A stretch of 34,029 nt of DNA from positions 1-34,029 of the forward strand of contig PCXC01000042.1 in assembly GCA_002796345.1 (NCBI GenBank), in the 5' to 3' direction. This DNA comes from Deltaproteobacteria bacterium CG11_big_fil_rev_8_21_14_0_20_42_23 (lineage in GTDB: Bacteria; UBA10199; 2-02-FULL-44-16). The translations under genes and the position numbers were made by a program. Below the pieces are notes generated by a model. It searched no databases. It worked only from the letters and a program-made list of their open reading frames with translations, and was not told the origin of the DNA. Shown here piece by piece: positions 14,515-32,553 of the stretch. Numbering within the stretch: position 1 is the first letter of the stretch; each line of letters begins with the position of its first letter.

Positions 14515-14778
14515 TTAATTCAGTGATTCTTTGATTAAAACTTGAGACAAAATGCTTCTTGATTTTGCACCAGTGACTAATTTCACGGGTTCGTCTTGAT
14601 TGGGAGTGATGAGGATTTCGCAGAGAATTCCTTTTCGCTCGCGGCATTTTCTGGGAATAAAAATTCCACCACATGACAAAACGCTTGGGTGTTGCTGCTG
14701 TGCAGCTCCCCCATGCTTACTTAAAAGTTGCCTTGCGATTGTTTCGGTTGTTGAAGCTTTTTTCATCATTTCCCACAT
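14515..14778 (-). CDS. Small cysteine-containing hypothetical protein
   Basis: An open frame of 87 codons from the ATG at 14778; a TTG start at 14853 would add 25 residues. The sequence reads as protein-like: a helical start (MMKKASTTETIARQLL), a middle with three cysteines (LSCGGIFIPRKC...GILC) and a polar end (ITPNQDEPVKLVTG). The cysteine spacing could bind metal, but no family is recognised. A TATAAT box lies on the minus strand at 14858-14863. It would share the uvrC terminator. Overlapping frames at 14366-14674 and 14717-14998 look less natural. From 14779 to 15027 I see only this promoter region. Confidence 0.4.
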   Translation of the reverse strand: MWEMMKKASTTETIARQLLSKHGGAAQQQHPSVLSCGGIFIPRKCRERKGILCEILITPNQDEPVKLVTGAKSRSILSQVLIKESLN

Positions 14779-15027
14779 CCCCTGTTGATCTCTCTGACAA
14801 GTATTGCAATGCCAGTGCCAAAAATGAGGAAGGAAAATAATGGTGATAACCAATTGAATTATAATGTTTTTTCAAGATTCCGAAGAGAAGCTTCAAGAGC
14901 AAAAATGGTTTACTTTCACCCCCTTTGAGAAGGTGTTGGCGTGATTTTGACTGATTTGTCGGATAAGGGACAAGAAAGAGGAAGAAGTGAGGGCACATTC
15001 TAAAGCAAATTTTTTGTCCGAGTCTAA

Positions 15028-15053
15028 CAGACCTTGTTTTTAAGCAAGGTCTG
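15028..15053. terminator. Strong hairpin downstream of hydrolase copy 1
   Basis: The inverted repeat CAGACCTTG/CAAGGTCTG, a 9-bp stem with an 8-nt loop, starts about 32 bp beyond the stop at 15086 that closes the extended frame of the copy-1 hydrolase. No T run follows directly on either strand, so it is a weak terminator or an RNA 3' stabiliser. Its position fits a gene that once ended at 15086 rather than 15275. Confidence 0.5.
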
Positions 15054-15085: not shown

Positions 15086-15274
15086 CTAACGGGGAAATCG
15101 TTCTACTCCGCCTTGCCATGTTCCATCAATTGCAGCCTGAGCAAATTCAATGATTCTTTTTTCAGCGATGGCAATAACTTTTCTTCCTTCTGGTGTTCTT
15201 GTATCTAGCCATGGGTTATGCGCTACTCCTTCAAAAATGCTGATTCCAACAGGATGACCTTCTGCACTGCGCTT
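15086..15274 (-). pseudogene. Detached C-terminal segment of hydrolase copy 1, after an in-frame stop
   Basis: Reading on in the same frame past the TAA at 15275-15277 gives 62 codons and then TAG (15086-15088). The peptide (starts KRSAEGHPVG, includes FEGVAHNPWLD, ends QGGVERFPR) aligns without a gap to the C-terminus of copy 2 (ERERQGFQVG, IEGAGHNPFL, NGGVTRLN). The histidine of HN-P, codon 1000 of the joined frame, is the expected third member of the Ser-Asp-His triad. One base change from CAA, GAA or AAA would create the TAA. Confidence 0.85.
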
Positions 15275-18217
15275 TTATGCTAGGTTTTCCCAGAAACGTT
15301 CACTGCCCTCAGGATAGCTGGTGTCACTATCGCCCACAATATAAGTGGTGGGTGATGGCCTGCCAGTGTAGGGGCGACTTAGATCGTGGTAATCATTGAA
15401 ATGCAAAAGTTGTCCAGCAACTGATTTGCGCAGTGCCCACATAAGCCCTCTTGGGTCATAACGATTTTCGGCAATGGTTGAAAGCCTTGCGAGGTCACGC
15501 ACATTGTATCGAATCCAATCAGGTTTAAAGCCAGAAAGACCAATTTTTCCGGCAAGCAACCTTGGGTATCGATAATCCAACTCGTCAACCACTACCGCTC
15601 CAAAACTTCTTCCCATAACAATGAGAGGTTTCTCGCTTCCATCGTCATTGGGATACTGTGCCTTAAGATAAGCTATGTAAGTAGCAAGGCTGTGAGTGAA
15701 GCTTGTCATGCTCGAGGTAGCGCTACCTCGATCTCCTAAAACGTGATGAGGAGGATCGATGGAAACACCAAAGACACCTTTGCGCGCCAATGTGCGTAAA
15801 ATGGGAACTCCAGAGCCGCCAGAAGACCAGGCACCACTACAACCTGGAAGAAAAAGAAAGAGGTATGGAGATGTTCGTGGATCAACAAGCATTGACTGAA
15901 AGTGTGCGGTGTTAAATCCCGGATGTACAAATCGCTCGATACCATATTCGGCAAGTTTTGTTTCAGCATACACACGTTGGTATGCTTGTGGAATAGGCGT
16001 TGGAGTTGTGCGGTCTGGGATAACATCAAGAAGAGTAAAGAAAATCTTGTCTCCATTTTCTCCAAACTCATATCCCTCTTGAAAAAGATCTCGAATACGT
16101 TCACTTTGTGCGAGTGTGATAAAGTTTTGTGAACATATTTTTTGCAAGAGTTCTAGCAATTCTATTCGATCATTCTCGTTTCCAGACGGAGTTAATTCTA
16201 GCGTTTGCGCATCAAATCGCACAGCAAGCTCTGTGTTATCGGGGAGCATGGTTAAGGCTATATGCAAGCGTTCGAAACTAGTGACAGGGTTTCCCGTGCT
16301 TCCAGTGAGCCAGGCGGCTACTTCGGTGGGAAGTTTTTTCAAAGGTGATCCGTCTTTTGTAACTGGAACCAAATCGATATATGCGCTTCTATCTTCCACA
16401 GGAGGAGGCGCGATGACTAAGCTTGCTCCTTCTGCCATGTGATATACGACGTGCCTGGCCGCAGCGTCAGCAATAATCAAGTCTTCCGGTCTTACAAGAG
16501 TATGATAATGGTTTGAGAGTGACAACTCAAGAGAAGCCAAGGCTTGGGTTAACAGGCCCAATTCAGATGAACTTAGAAAATTCAGGCGATGAAGTTGTGT
16601 ATCATCAATACCGCGTTCTCTTAAGAGAGCCGCTATATCATTTTTTGCATTGGCGATTTCGCTGAAAGAAAGAGAAGTGAGCGTCGTTAGATCTCTAATG
16701 CCCAGTCTCGCCAAAGTGCGAAGCAGCCTTTCTTTAGTTTTAAACCCAGCATTTAAAGCTGCGACAATGTGCTTTTGAAGCATTGCTCTTTCTCTTTGAA
16801 GTTCTTCCAAGGGGCGATCATATCCTTGAGGATTTTCAGCTGAACCCTTATCAAAGTGCCGAGAGAAATAGGCAAGCACAGCATCCAGTTCATCTAACGA
16901 AGCTGCAAGAGTTTTTAGCTCATCTGCCTTTATCTGTGCAGGCGTTTCAGCTTTATGAGGAGAAAGGTTGAATGGTGTAAATGCTGGAGGAGCTTCGCCT
17001 ATGGTTGTTGTTGGTCTTTCGTTTATGTAAGCATGATATGCTTTCCAGAATGCTTCTACTTGTTGGCGGAAAGTTTTTTTCCTTTGAGCTGGTTTTGAAA
17101 GTGTTGCAGCTGCCTCCAGCCAATCAAGAGGGAGGCGTTGAAGGGAGTTGTCATCAGGTTTTTTCAACTGCACATTGTGAAGAGCTAAAACGCGAGTTAT
17201 TTTTTGCACTGCAGCGAAGCTGTCTATCCCGGGTATTGCAAATAGTTCATCTGGAGTAAGAGTTCCCATGCTGCTTATGGTTCGGAGGCCTTGGGGTGCA
17301 AGTAACAAAGCTCTCACTTGTGTTTCCGAAAGGAAAACGTCTTTGCTTGTGTCTCCTAAGTTTTGGATGTCATCATTGCTTGCATCAGCAAAGTCCGCAG
17401 ATGAAAAAGAGGCTTGATTAAGAGCTGATATGTCGAAGGCGAGTAAAGCTTGATTTAACTGCCGAAAGGTCTCTGCGCCATGTAACTCAAGCCTTTTCAT
17501 TGCGCGCTCTTCTATGCCACCAGGTTTTTTTATCAGTGTAGTAAGTGCATGTCTTTGAAAGCCATTGCTTTGAAGGGTACGGAGCTCATCGAAGAGAGAA
17601 GCTGTTTTTTCATTTTTTCTAAACTCTAGTGCTTCAATAAGAGAATGCACTCCGTGTACGGCTAACTCATTTGCAAGGGCGTCCAGCTTTGTTTGAAAAG
17701 CTGAACTGCCTGGGTTGAATTCTAAGCGAAATGCTTCAGTCAAACCTAACCTTATTGGTGTGGTAAGTTTATTTATAAGCTGTGCGCGGTCCCGGTCGTT
17801 GGTATCAAGAAGCCGAGGTGCATTGTTAACAACATGTGCCCGTATTGCGAGGCTCACAGCTTTTTGTGCTAGCTGTGTGTAGTGTGTTTCCATGAGAAGG
17901 CCAAACTGAGCCTGTGTAAAAGAAGCAAGGTGTTCTTTTGTTTGGATTCCGCTCTCCAGTATTCTCTTCGCTGTAGGTGTAGCAACGTCAGCTATGTGTT
18001 GTGGTGATGCAACAGAAGTTGAAAAACGAAGTGGTCCAGCAAGATTTGTTCCTTGAGCGAAAACAGAAAGCCTAGCTCTGAATGTTTCCGTGCAACGTGC
18101 GCCATCAACGATGTGCGCGGCAATAGAACTTCGAGCAAAAGGAACAGAGGTCATGCCGCTGGGTAAGGTAACCCTTGTAAGAAGTGGAGTTGGAAGGGGT
18201 GGAAAATTTGTATTCAT
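15275..18217 (-). CDS. Giant alpha/beta-hydrolase protein, copy 1 (truncated by an in-frame stop)
   Basis: A 980-residue protein, homologous to the protein at 23492-26506. The N-terminal 600 residues are mostly helical and contain at least two HhH or alpha-CTD-like modules (LAPQGLRTISSMGTLTPDEL; LARLGIRDLTTLTSLSFSEI). Residues from about 780 form an alpha/beta-hydrolase: LFLFLPGCSGAWSSGGSG as the oxyanion region, the nucleophile elbow GRSFG with Ser871, and VGDSDTSYP with Asp965. The TAA at 15275 removes the histidine segment, so the product is probably inactive unless the stop is read through. No signal peptide is evident. Its start overlaps the upstream small gene as ATGA. Substrate unknown. 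Confidence 0.75.
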   Translation of the reverse strand: MNTNFPPLPTPLLTRVTLPSGMTSVPFARSSIAAHIVDGARCTETFRARLSVFAQGTNLAGPLRFSTSVASPQHIADVATPTAKRILESGIQTKEHLASFTQAQFGLLMETHYTQLAQKAVSLAIRAHVVNNAPRLLDTNDRDRAQLINKLTTPIRLGLTEAFRLEFNPGSSAFQTKLDALANELAVHGVHSLIEALEFRKNEKTASLFDELRTLQSNGFQRHALTTLIKKPGGIEERAMKRLELHGAETFRQLNQALLAFDISALNQASFSSADFADASNDDIQNLGDTSKDVFLSETQVRALLLAPQGLRTISSMGTLTPDELFAIPGIDSFAAVQKITRVLALHNVQLKKPDDNSLQRLPLDWLEAAATLSKPAQRKKTFRQQVEAFWKAYHAYINERPTTTIGEAPPAFTPFNLSPHKAETPAQIKADELKTLAASLDELDAVLAYFSRHFDKGSAENPQGYDRPLEELQRERAMLQKHIVAALNAGFKTKERLLRTLARLGIRDLTTLTSLSFSEIANAKNDIAALLRERGIDDTQLHRLNFLSSSELGLLTQALASLELSLSNHYHTLVRPEDLIIADAAARHVVYHMAEGASLVIAPPPVEDRSAYIDLVPVTKDGSPLKKLPTEVAAWLTGSTGNPVTSFERLHIALTMLPDNTELAVRFDAQTLELTPSGNENDRIELLELLQKICSQNFITLAQSERIRDLFQEGYEFGENGDKIFFTLLDVIPDRTTPTPIPQAYQRVYAETKLAEYGIERFVHPGFNTAHFQSMLVDPRTSPYLFLFLPGCSGAWSSGGSGVPILRTLARKGVFGVSIDPPHHVLGDRGSATSSMTSFTHSLATYIAYLKAQYPNDDGSEKPLIVMGRSFGAVVVDELDYRYPRLLAGKIGLSGFKPDWIRYNVRDLARLSTIAENRYDPRGLMWALRKSVAGQLLHFNDYHDLSRPYTGRPSPTTYIVGDSDTSYPEGSERFWENLA

Positions 18218-23432: not shown

Positions 23433-23495
23433 GTGTACATTCATTCATTACCGTTTTTCCCTGTTACCCAAGGCTGCATGAGAGGTTGCCGATGA
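23433..23495 (+). CDS. 20-codon ORF coupled to hydrolase copy 2
   Basis: A GTG-started ORF of 20 codons (VYIHSLPFFPVTQGCMRGCR) with AGGAG 6 nt upstream (23422-23426). Its TGA overlaps the ATG of the large gene (ATGA). Copy 1 has the same arrangement with a 71-codon ORF. It may serve only to load ribosomes onto the hydrolase start. Confidence 0.4.
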   Translation: MYIHSLPFFPVTQGCMRGCR

Positions 23496-26400
23496 CAACA
23501 GGTCTTCCTCTTTTTCAGGTTTTTTCGACAGCTCTTGCTCCAACTCCGTCGCAAATGAAGCCAAGCTTACTTCTCCCAGCTATACGCGGTGGTGTTCCTG
23601 GCACAGCAGCGAGTAGCATCTATCTTCATCCCACACATTCTTTGGCCTTTTTAGTACTTACTCACACCAGATTGCGCGTGCCAGCTCCTTTGCGTGAAGT
23701 GGGAAGCGCAACTCAAAGTTCACCGGCTTTCATGGTGTTAGAAAAAGCGGGAATGAACGACCGTGCTTCTACCCATCTTTATACTGAAGCTCAGATAGCA
23801 TTTTTAATCCAAGAACCCATTGATCATGAGCTTCGCGTGCAGTTGAGAGATAAACTCCAAACACATATTGCTGCACAACTTAATGACGATGAAATACATT
23901 CCGACGCTTTTTCGTCAGTGCAACTCACAGGAGTTTTAACTGAAGTGTTAGATGTATTTGAAAACAATGAACTTGCACATCAGCTTTCCGTCGATATTTC
24001 CGAAGCTTTACAAAGTGATGCTGTAAGAAAAAAGTTGCTTGCAAAAGGAAAACAAAAAAATCCAGCTCAACAAGTGGCTTGTGATATTGCAGCCAAATAT
24101 TTTCAGCGTGATCATAGAGCTTTTGTAGAGCTTGCCGATGAAAAAAAGAAAGCAATTCTTTCTGAGATGAAAACTCACTTGGCAACACAGGATAAAGCGT
24201 TTGCCTCTGAAATTGAACATTCTGTTGAACGCTTACTTGAAGGTGAGCAAGTGCATGCAGCACACATGAGAAAAGCAGTGAATGCTTTTTTGGTGCATGG
24301 TTTTCGAACTCTTTCTGATCTTTCGTCTTTGTCTGAAATTGACTGTTTATCACTTTTTGGTTTTCCCAATTATCATAGCGCAGTGCTTGAGGTAAAAAAA
24401 CAGCTTGCTTCGCTTGGATACACGTTAAGAGAAGTGAGTGAGGATGATTTAGAGCAGCTTCCACTTAATGCGATTATTGTTCGTTCTCTTTTAGACGAAC
24501 TTCAGCTTTCAGTTTCTCATCCAGGTGGAGTAAATAAATATACATTCGCTGCATTGCTCACAGAATATGCTGCAAACTTAAAAGCTTACCTTGAAGAAAG
24601 ATTGAGTGATGAAGCTGCTCCAAGTCTTGTAATTCCTGCTCTTGCGGGTGGATTGATAGAAAATCTATACCGTCAACTTGCTGAGAGCGAATCTGTTTTG
24701 CTTCAGCATCAAAAGCAAGAAGGTTACGATGATACTTTCGAAGCTCGCAGACGAGAGCTTCAGGCTTTGATGAAAGCTTTGGACCTCACAATTGCAAAAG
24801 CAAAAATACAGCATTCGCAAGTGATTACAAAACTGCGTCAGCTTGGTGTAAGCAATATTCATGATCTCACGCAAGTTTCTGCAAGTGAATTGCAAATGTA
24901 CAAAAAAGATCTCGATCGGCTTTTGAAAGCAAAAGATAAGTCGCTTGAACTTCAGCTTCCAAACTTCTCTCTAGCAGAAACTGAAATGATTCAGTTTGCA
25001 TTGCACCTCGTGGGAAAAGAATTTTCTTCTCTTTATCATACTACTTTTTTGCCAGCAGATTTAGAAGCTCCGGCAGAAAATTCGGCTCAGGTTTTTTTTG
25101 AAGGTGCTGGCTTGTATTTGCTCCCACCTGAAAATTCAGATCCAATTTCTTTTGATCGTGTGCCATTGCTTCGCGAAGGTTCTCCGCTTGCAAGTCTTCC
25201 TTCCGAAGCGCTTGCATGGCTCACGCAAAAGGGAAGTACAGCAGAAGTTTCTTTTGATCGCTTGTTCCTTTCACTGACACTTCTTCCAGCTTGGACAGTG
25301 TATACGCCTGAACGAAATAATACGCATTTACAGGTTCATGTGGCTAAGGTTGAGCTCGTGGATGATGGAAACGCTGAACGTCATCAAACTCTTCGTGCTG
25401 TGCTCTCACGCATTGAATCACAAGGCTTCATTTCACTTGAAGAAGCTGACATCATTCGTGCGAACATTCGTGAACCTCATGGTGAAGAACGTGGAGATGT
25501 CATTCAGTTTTTGCTTCCGGATATAAGGGTTGGCGAAACGCAAGACATTGCGCTTCGTCCTGAATACCAAGTGGATTACACCGCTTCGCGTTTATCTGCT
25601 TATGGTTTAGAGCGTTATTACGATGGACGTTTTGGACATTCCATTTGGAGAAGTGGGCTGGTTGATCCAGCTGCGTCGCCGTTTCATCTTGTCTTTCTTC
25701 CAGGTTGTGGTGGAGCTTGGTCGTGCGGTGCTTCGGGTGCTGTCTTGATTGAAGCCTTTGCAAAAGCGAAAGCTTCGGTGTTCTCGCTTGATTTGCCGTA
25801 CCATGGTTTGAGTTCTCAGGGTGAAAGTTCATCTAGTATGGATGCCTTCATGCAATCTCTTTTTCTCTACTTGAGTGCATTGAAACAAGAATATAGGAAA
25901 CCGATTTTTCTCATGGGAAGAAGTTATGGAGCAAACTTGGTGGAAGAGCTTGATTGGAGATATGGTGATCGTAATGTGATTGCCGGAAAAATTCCACTTT
26001 CTGGTTTTCGATCAGAATGGATTCGTTACAACATGAATGATATGTCTGATTTATCGCGAAGAGGGTTAACGCGGTTGAATATGGATGGCCTAATGTGGTC
26101 GCGTCGAAAAGCTATCGAACATGGTTTCCAACACTTTGGAATGTTTTCTGATTTTTCACAATTACCAGCTCATAGAAGAGTAAGCCCAACGTTATATCTT
26201 GTTGGTGATGGTGACAGTTCTTACCCTGGTGCAAATGAACAGTTATGGGTGAATGCTGCAAATGAACGGGAGCGTCAAGGTTTTCAAGTTGGTACAACCG
26301 TAATAGAAGGTGCTGGGCACAATCCTTTTTTAACTCCAACTGCTGATGATCCAGAAGCAGAGATAAAAAGAGCCGCTGCGTCGCTTGCGATGAAGCAAAT

Positions 26401-26506
26401 TTTTGGTTTTGTTGGGAAAGTTTTAGGAAATGAATGGAATGGCGGTGTGACTCGTTTGAATGTTGCAAATGAAATGGCTGCAGGTGGAAGAAAAAAGAAA
26501 AAATAA
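23492..26506 (+). CDS. Giant alpha/beta-hydrolase protein, copy 2 (intact)
   Basis: A 1004-residue protein from the ATG at 23492. No signal peptide is clear, although the N-terminus has weakly hydrophobic stretches. Helical region to about 560, with HhH or alpha-CTD-like modules near 260-310 (HGFRTLSDLSSLSEIDCLSL) and 448-485 (LRQLGVSNIHDLTQVSASEL). A linker domain follows, shared with copy 1 (RVPLLREGSPLASLPSEALA against LVPVTKDGSPLKKLPTEVAA). The C-terminal alpha/beta-hydrolase has VFLPGCGGAWS, GRSYG with Ser811, VGDGDSSYP with Asp908 and GAGHNP with His943. The tail is basic (GGRKKKK). A serine ester, amide or thioester hydrolase is likely; substrate unknown. Confidence 0.8.
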   Translation: MTTGLPLFQVFSTALAPTPSQMKPSLLLPAIRGGVPGTAASSIYLHPTHSLAFLVLTHTRLRVPAPLREVGSATQSSPAFMVLEKAGMNDRASTHLYTEAQIAFLIQEPIDHELRVQLRDKLQTHIAAQLNDDEIHSDAFSSVQLTGVLTEVLDVFENNELAHQLSVDISEALQSDAVRKKLLAKGKQKNPAQQVACDIAAKYFQRDHRAFVELADEKKKAILSEMKTHLATQDKAFASEIEHSVERLLEGEQVHAAHMRKAVNAFLVHGFRTLSDLSSLSEIDCLSLFGFPNYHSAVLEVKKQLASLGYTLREVSEDDLEQLPLNAIIVRSLLDELQLSVSHPGGVNKYTFAALLTEYAANLKAYLEERLSDEAAPSLVIPALAGGLIENLYRQLAESESVLLQHQKQEGYDDTFEARRRELQALMKALDLTIAKAKIQHSQVITKLRQLGVSNIHDLTQVSASELQMYKKDLDRLLKAKDKSLELQLPNFSLAETEMIQFALHLVGKEFSSLYHTTFLPADLEAPAENSAQVFFEGAGLYLLPPENSDPISFDRVPLLREGSPLASLPSEALAWLTQKGSTAEVSFDRLFLSLTLLPAWTVYTPERNNTHLQVHVAKVELVDDGNAERHQTLRAVLSRIESQGFISLEEADIIRANIREPHGEERGDVIQFLLPDIRVGETQDIALRPEYQVDYTASRLSAYGLERYYDGRFGHSIWRSGLVDPAASPFHLVFLPGCGGAWSCGASGAVLIEAFAKAKASVFSLDLPYHGLSSQGESSSSMDAFMQSLFLYLSALKQEYRKPIFLMGRSYGANLVEELDWRYGDRNVIAGKIPLSGFRSEWIRYNMNDMSDLSRRGLTRLNMDGLMWSRRKAIEHGFQHFGMFSDFSQLPAHRRVSPTLYLVGDGDSSYPGANEQLWVNAANERERQGFQVGTTVIEGAGHNPFLTPTADDPEAEIKRAAASLAMKQIFGFVGKVLGNEWNGGVTRLNVANEMAAGGRKKKK

Positions 26507-30576: not shown

Positions 30577-30604
30577 TTGACTTTCCGGATGGTGTGAATA
30601 CTTA
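30577..30604 (+). promoter_or_regulatory. Promoter of the tandem membrane-protein genes
   Basis: TTGACT (30577-30582), a 16-bp spacer, TACTTA (30599-30604), followed by a short leader with AAAGGAG (30616-30622) 7 nt before the ATG at 30630. This is an ordinary promoter with a leader. Confidence 0.5.
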
Positions 30605-30629
30605 CAAAAATTCACAAAGGAGAGGGCGT

Positions 30630-31541
30630 ATGTTTTTAGATCGTACAGGTGTTTCAAGGTTAGTAGCTCCCGTTCAAGCTCCACTTGGTGTGCAGATGGT
30701 GCAAGGCTTAACGCTTGCAACGACGGAGGACACAGATACAGCATTTCAAGCTTGGAGTTCCTTAAGAGCGAGCTTCGGTGACAATCATTCTGCCTTTCGT
30801 GGTTATGTGTTTCCAAACCAAGGTTCAATTCAAAATGTGCGAGATGTTGTTGGTGCCTATGCACTTAAGCCCCTTCAAACAGCCTTCGACAGAAGTTTAG
30901 AGCGCTTAGTGGTAAAGCAAGCTCAAGTGAGAACTCCAAGCGACTTCATGCTTCTTGCAGGTGCAGAGCTGTTGGTTTCACCTCCAGCAATACTTACAGG
31001 TGAAAATGGAAACCTTCCTTTCGAAGGTGAAGTGATTCCTTTGATTCAGCTTGCGAATGCTGGCTTACTTTCAAAAGAGCGCGCGTTGGCTTTTACGCGC
31101 GCTTTAGAGCCTGCGCGAGCATCTTATGAAAAAGCATTGCGGCGTCGCATTGGACTTGAAACTCACTGGAAATTTCGATGGGGAAACGCTCATCCAAATC
31201 GAATTGCAGAACTTCATGAAAATGACAGTGATGCAATTAATTTGCTTAATGTCCATCGCTGTCTTCAGGCTGGTATTTTGGGAGTTGCTCTTTCTCTTTT
31301 CGCTTCCTATCCTCTATTTTTTGGCAATCAATCACTCCAAGAAAAAATATCAATTTTATTGATCGATGCTTGTATGGGGGTTGGCGGTGGTGCTCTGCTT
31401 GACGTGATGAATGAGATGCGAGCTCCTGTAACAGTAAGTGAACGCAGGAGAAGTGAAGCCTTGAAGCACGTGCAAAGGATGGGTGACACTTTGAAAGTTT
31501 TTGAACAAGAGCTCAGCAGAAATGCAGCAGGAGAAGTGTGA
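30630..31541 (+). CDS. Hypothetical membrane protein, tandem paralog A
   Basis: A 303-residue protein from the ATG at 30630, chosen for the AAAGGAG site 7 nt upstream; an in-frame start at 30594 lies inside the promoter. It aligns with the next gene, most clearly at AGAELLVSPPAILTGENG then LPFEGEVIPLIQLANAGLLS (paralog B: AGAELMLTIPAVLKRQNR then VPFDGEVIPLVDLVTYDLLS). Two predicted membrane helices lie near residues 213-231 and 243-260, about 40 residues before the end. The rest is helical with many Arg and Glu. No family or active site is recognised. Paralog B begins about 1 nt after its stop. Confidence 0.7.
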   Translation: MFLDRTGVSRLVAPVQAPLGVQMVQGLTLATTEDTDTAFQAWSSLRASFGDNHSAFRGYVFPNQGSIQNVRDVVGAYALKPLQTAFDRSLERLVVKQAQVRTPSDFMLLAGAELLVSPPAILTGENGNLPFEGEVIPLIQLANAGLLSKERALAFTRALEPARASYEKALRRRIGLETHWKFRWGNAHPNRIAELHENDSDAINLLNVHRCLQAGILGVALSLFASYPLFFGNQSLQEKISILLIDACMGVGGGALLDVMNEMRAPVTVSERRRSEALKHVQRMGDTLKVFEQELSRNAAGEV

Positions 31542-31542
31542 A

Positions 31543-32553
31543 GTGGGAATAGGTGGCATCCCAACTGCGCCAGCTGCTCATCATCCGCTTGTGCTTCCGC
31601 GCCCGCTTGGCCCCACGATGATGTATGCGCTCCACCTTGCTAAGGCAAAAACTCCTTTGGCAATCGAAACGTCTTTTCGTTCTTTGTGTGCTTTACTTGG
31701 AAGATCCAATCGTTTTCATTTCCCTCCTCATCTTTCTTCTTTTCAAGCAAGAGATATCCAAGAAGTGCAGACAGAACTTTTGGATGGCGTGGCATCTGCT
31801 GTTGAAGGCGCTTTGGAAAGCCGTGTTTTCCAAGATCCAAGAGAACATGGTGAAGCCTCAAGTATGATTGTGAGAGCTGGCGCAGAGTTGATGCTTACAA
31901 TTCCTGCTGTTCTAAAAAGACAAAATCGCGAAGTGCCTTTTGATGGTGAGGTCATACCTCTTGTTGATTTGGTTACCTATGATTTGCTTTCTGTTGAAAC
32001 AGCCCTCCGCTTTGTAAGTGGCTTGCAGTCTGAGCTTCCCGTGTATCTACGAGAACTTCACAGAAGAATTGACCTGGAAGGTTATGGCAGTTTTGATTTG
32101 AACAGATTCCGAGGAAGTGTTCCCAGGCCAGGAAAAGTGAAAGCATGGCTTGCAGAAAATCCCGTTGAAAAAGGAATGAAACTATATCACGGCGATTACC
32201 AGGCGGATCGTTTGAAGACTGCTCGCCCGGCTCGTCATGCTTTTGCTTTTTCGGCTCTTACCTTCCTTTCGTTTGCTTTTGGATATACACAGACTGATTT
32301 TATGCAAGCTTTGCAATTGCAGTTTTCTATGAGTCTTGCTGCATATGCTGGTGTGTCATGGCTAGACGCGAAAAGATGGAGAGAGAATGCTAAAACATCA
32401 ACAGATCTGTCTGCGATGCTGTATGTCTTGCCACAAGTGCAAACCTTATGGGGAAAGCTTTCAGACATTCATCGAGTTTTAACAGATATGAAGGAAGCTG
32501 CAGATTTAGAAGCAGCATTAGAAGCTGGAACTGTTTCAGTAGCCATCCACTAA
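31543..32553 (+). CDS. Hypothetical membrane protein, tandem paralog B
   Basis: A 336-residue protein from the GTG at 31543, which has AGGAG (31529-31533) 9 nt upstream and follows the stop of paralog A; an ATG at 31522 is the alternative and has no ribosome site. It shares with paralog A the AGAEL...PFDGEVIPL block, a following ELHRRIDLEGYGSFDLN (A: ALRRRIGLETHWKFRWG), and two membrane helices near the C-terminus (FAFSALTFLSFAFGY; LQFSMSLAAYAGVSWL). Unlike A it has an extra segment before the helices. Probably arose by tandem duplication. Function unknown. It is convergent with the lipoprotein gene, 2 bp apart. Confidence 0.7.
   Translation: MGIGGIPTAPAAHHPLVLPRPLGPTMMYALHLAKAKTPLAIETSFRSLCALLGRSNRFHFPPHLSSFQARDIQEVQTELLDGVASAVEGALESRVFQDPREHGEASSMIVRAGAELMLTIPAVLKRQNREVPFDGEVIPLVDLVTYDLLSVETALRFVSGLQSELPVYLRELHRRIDLEGYGSFDLNRFRGSVPRPGKVKAWLAENPVEKGMKLYHGDYQADRLKTARPARHAFAFSALTFLSFAFGYTQTDFMQALQLQFSMSLAAYAGVSWLDAKRWRENAKTSTDLSAMLYVLPQVQTLWGKLSDIHRVLTDMKEAADLEAALEAGTVSVAIH

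Follow-up and report, generated by a model that had tools for sequence, protein, structure and literature searches.

An in-frame TAA ahead of the catalytic histidine in a putative alpha/beta-hydrolase gene of a deltaproteobacterial draft genome

Introduction

Stop codons lying inside an apparent bacterial gene can have several origins. In nonsense pseudogenes, which are products of ordinary bacterial gene decay, the stop interrupts a sequence with homology on both of its sides. In programmed stop-codon readthrough, the stop is conserved among family members and is accompanied by a stimulatory RNA element or a suppressor tRNA. In stop-codon reassignment, the codon is no longer in use as a terminator, and either a cognate tRNA is present or a release factor has been lost. 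As a reference for bacterial readthrough, values of 0.005-0.01% measured at UAG in Pseudomonas are given in PMC9481147.

The window considered here, meaning the whole stretch of DNA that was analysed, is a complete contig of 34,029 bases (C42) from a draft genome of 81 contigs and 2.03 Mb. It contains two related hydrolase genes, named copy 1 and copy 2, and the first of them carries an in-frame TAA (Table 1). This stop most likely reflects either a recent inactivating mutation of an ordinary kind or a mistake in the assembly, and not a novel form of gene decoding.

The interrupted gene and its tail

Copy 1 is encoded on the minus strand, where the codons surrounding its stop read ...GAA AAC CTA GCA TAA AAG CGC AGT... 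The original prediction had located this TAA exactly, and the frame beyond it is indeed open for 62 codons up to a TAG, as had been claimed.

Table 1. Coordinates of the interrupted hydrolase gene, its intact paralogue and the neighbouring repeat in the window
Feature	Position	Strand	Remarks
Hydrolase copy 1 as it stands	18217 to 15275	minus	980 codons + TAA
In-frame TAA of copy 1	15277-15275	minus	codon 981 of the read-through frame
Copy 1 tail past the TAA	15274-15089	minus	62 open codons, homologous to the end of copy 2
TAG closing the tail frame	15088-15086	minus	presumed ancestral end of the copy 1 gene
Hydrolase copy 2	23486-26506	plus	uninterrupted; Ser/Asp/His triad present
11-bp inverted repeat (CAGACCTTG...CAAGGTCTG)	15028-15053	.	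~33 bases beyond the TAG

An open stretch of this length is unremarkable by itself, and the tail is judged to be coding because of its homology and its coding score. When aligned to the C-terminus of copy 2, the tail reaches a score of 95, compared with a maximum of 53 among 2000 shuffles of the tail, and 21 of the 59 aligned residues are identical (~36%). The alignment to the end of copy 2 that had been predicted is thereby borne out, but its description as free of gaps is not, since copy 2 has extra residues after HNPFL that open one 5-residue gap. Copy 2 also runs about 15 residues longer at the C-terminal end. Upstream of the stop, the two copies are identical in 115 of 283 columns (41%) and, judged from these identities, the tail does not appear visibly more diverged than the sequence that precedes the stop.

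The coding score, based on codon usage and trained on long ORFs from the same genome, is +10.2 for the tail in frame and negative in all five remaining frames. For reference, 62-codon coding windows of this genome average +9.0, and the 99th percentile of non-coding frames lies at +0.64. The tail is thus real coding sequence. A family profile of 290 positions matches copy 1 over positions 1-290, straight through the TAA, and the stop has homologous sequence on either side. An independent start within the tail was considered and ruled out, as neither ATG nor GTG nor TTG occurs among its 62 codons. The tail could therefore be produced solely by passing the TAA.

The inverted repeat that follows the TAG is a possible transcript end beyond the tail; its T-rich side favours the plus strand, which makes its role for copy 1 uncertain. 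The 600 bases from the end of copy 1 to uvrC hold just two short, overlapping and doubtful ORFs (14515-14998, minus strand), and no gene was identified in this interval. Elsewhere in the window, at 30594-31541 and 31501-32553 (plus strand), two genes overlap in tandem; their products are related to each other, with 34% identity over 168 residues, and no Pfam family match was obtained for them.

Domain architecture and residues lost by the cut

Copy 1 consists of an N-terminal helical region of about 740 amino acids, with weak HHH/SAM-like segments, followed by an alpha/beta-hydrolase domain. The domain was aligned across seven family members, two of them encoded in the window, a third on contig C17 of the same genome and the remaining four in genomes belonging to the same class. 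Ser871 (of the GRSxG motif), Asp965 and His1000 are invariant in 7/7 of these sequences, and so are Gly997 and Phe1025. Truncated copy 1 keeps Ser871 and Asp965, while Gly997, His1000 and Phe1025 all lie in the tail. The domain profile matches the monoacylglycerol lipase of PDB entry 6qe2 (E 1.3e-7), and the two line up at the Ser, Asp and His motifs, in agreement with the earlier proposal that the part cut off holds the presumed histidine of the triad. Judged from this conservation, the cut would cost copy 1 a residue needed for function, His1000.

Every Pfam score for the hydrolases of the window falls under the curated cut-offs; for Hydrolase_4 (PF12146), with a cut-off of 27 bits, the scores were 13.0 and 22.8 bits. 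A structural model of the copy 2 domain is of low to middling confidence (mean pLDDT 57.7), and its topology alone was therefore used. Foldseek searches of the PDB with this model returned alpha/beta hydrolases, human monoglyceride lipase (E 1e-4) among them. With an invariant GRSxG elbow, Asp and His, and with fold matches that come from a model of such confidence, the intact copies fit the alpha/beta-hydrolase superfamily. The position equivalent to the cut lies inside helix 253-266 of the model, ahead of strand 271-277, His281 and helix 294-316.

As the gene stands, translation would be expected to terminate at the TAA once residue 980 has been added, part-way through the helix that lies between the catalytic Asp and the His. 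The product would then have only half of this helix and would lack everything that follows: the final core strand, the loop bearing the His and the C-terminal helix. Without these three elements, the 980-residue protein should be inactive as a hydrolase, its domain either failing to fold properly or, at the least, being unable to catalyse. Synthesis of the N-terminal ~740 residues may continue, and copy 2 and a third copy of the genome, located on contig C17, presumably maintain the family's function.

Family members and distribution

Copy 2 is 36% identical to copy 1 across residues 308-980 of the latter, and the N-terminal region is partly common to copy 1, copy 2 and the C17 copy. A lipase-like domain together with a long N-terminal region (~700 amino acids in the window copies), in which weak helix-hairpin-helix or SAM-like segments occur, was observed at 15275-18217 (minus strand) and 23486-26506 (plus strand) of the window, and at L010 1489-5226. 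This architecture matched no curated family, and the genomes in which it was found were few, all within the class.

When 46 genomes of the class were searched with a family profile built from seven C-terminal domains, 14 matches were obtained. An in-frame stop is present in one of the 14, copy 1 itself, and absent from the other 13, among which there is no close orthologue; the picture was the same with copy 2 as the query. Neither the three same-family genomes nor the five same-order genomes contain the hydrolase gene, and a search for close relatives in genome and viral contig collections found none. A narrower alignment query returned four loci, all from class-level members already in the set. 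Based on these searches, the family appears to be small, patchily distributed and lipase-like, with two intact paralogues of copy 1 in the genome.

Genetic code and decoding of the stop

In a 472-kb sample, ORFs with 250 codons or more number 262; of these, 132 end in TAA, 69 in TGA and 61 in TAG, which makes TAA the commonest normal stop of the sampled genome. The genes for both release factors, RF1 and RF2, are intact, and the anticodons TTA, CTA and TCA are missing from the 35 tRNA genes found. TAA is hence a codon in use as a terminator, with no cognate tRNA and no release factor lost, and both reassignment and a tRNA suppressor are excluded to the extent that the tRNA genes of the draft genome were recovered. 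This is a firmer statement than the original prediction, which had considered reassignment unlikely. An internal UGA frameshift site in prfB is known from many bacteria; here, prfB (L012 1429-2532) is one unbroken frame without such a site. The stop noticed within the prfB match is its normal terminal TAG and not an interruption.

A readthrough-stimulating hairpin was sought 3' of the copy 1 stop, where folding was no better than in shuffled sequences (z +0.57 and +0.89). Neither a stimulatory RNA element nor a suppressor tRNA accompanies the stop, and no other member of the family, close orthologues not being among them, carries a stop at this place.

Age and isolation of the lesion

Across the 1042 sense codons of copy 1, no second lesion is present. 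Given the codons of the gene, 3.4% of random substitutions would create a stop; if the number of indels is taken as 5-10% of that of substitutions, the neutral-drift bound on the age of the lesion is ~1-1.4% divergence, a rough value that assumes no selection and a gene drifting freely. The lack of further damage suggests a lesion of recent date, one that most cells do not carry, or a mistake in the consensus. In a survey of interrupted genes over stretches that total 472 kb, roughly one quarter of the genome, no second long ORF was found with a coding-like, start-less extension in frame, suggesting that the stop of copy 1 is an isolated event.

Alternative explanations

Copy 1 is probably an accessory alpha/beta-hydrolase gene with a single nonsense lesion, presumably recent and presumably present in the DNA of the cells. 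The undecayed tail fits a recent lesion, an assembly error and a gene that is whole in most cells equally well. An error of consensus or assembly, or a minor-strain allele picked by the assembler, would leave the gene whole in the living population and nothing truncated. This is possible, if clearly less likely than a true lesion: the draft is fragmented into 81 contigs and is probably a metagenome bin, as the related records are, and a single codon is damaged in a gene otherwise clean over its whole length, the sole such case in the sampled sequence. Against an error, no signs of low quality are seen nearby, the adjacent genes being open with no second interrupted frame, and a base substitution is required, whereas homopolymer errors are typically indels.

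The remaining explanations are much less probable. That readthrough of the UAA makes a little full-length active enzyme, perhaps the regulated long form that had been offered as an option, is very unlikely. A fully preserved, coding-like tail that has no starts of its own and keeps the catalytic His would suit it, but the same tail is also predicted by a recent lesion. The idea fares poorly with the lack of a suppressor tRNA and of stable RNA structure past the stop, with the use of TAA to terminate half of the long ORFs, with paralogues that have no stop at that place, and with the low readthrough measured at UAG in Pseudomonas. Context-dependent readthrough at a low level is remotely conceivable. 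A regulated passage of the UAA, by which one gene would give a dead 980-residue form and a rare active form of 1043 residues, its triad completed only by readthrough, is more improbable again. Ranking between these two readthrough proposals in likelihood is a short form that is functional itself, as a non-catalytic protein using its N-terminal helical region. The reading frame is open over the 740 N-terminal residues, parts of which recur in copy 2 and the C17 copy, yet the hydrolase domain is complete in every other aligned member, the truncation point lies inside the fold and not at the edge of a domain, and the discarded tail is undecayed. Finally, the in-frame TAA itself would be expected if TAA were reassigned to an amino acid in the source genome, an explanation whose probability is close to nil in view of the 132 long ORFs that TAA ends, the two intact release factors and the lack of a TAA-reading tRNA. 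The single recent nonsense lesion is the preferred reading of copy 1.

Significance and comparison with known systems

As it stands, the case is a minor one, in which one gene of a draft genome appears broken and its paralogues are whole. It also holds a caution, because a preserved tail behind a stop looks identical whether it stems from a fresh mutation, from an assembly error or from readthrough; telling these apart needs reads or close relatives, and not further sequence analysis. If readthrough were true, copy 1 would be a rare bacterial case of a UAA whose passage turns catalysis on.

Among the known systems, programmed stop-codon readthrough shares with copy 1 a preserved in-frame extension past the stop, and differs from it in that the UAA of copy 1 is found without a stimulatory structure, a suppressor tRNA or conservation of the stop in other members. 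The encoded domain resembles the monoacylglycerol lipase/Hydrolase_4 branch in its match to 6qe2, with the triad in register, and in its Foldseek matches; it departs from this branch in its sub-cut-off Pfam scores and in the helical region of about 700 amino acids ahead of the domain. Although its TAA may not be a true mutation, copy 1 is like a nonsense pseudogene in having one in-frame stop, downstream homology that continues in frame, and intact paralogues.
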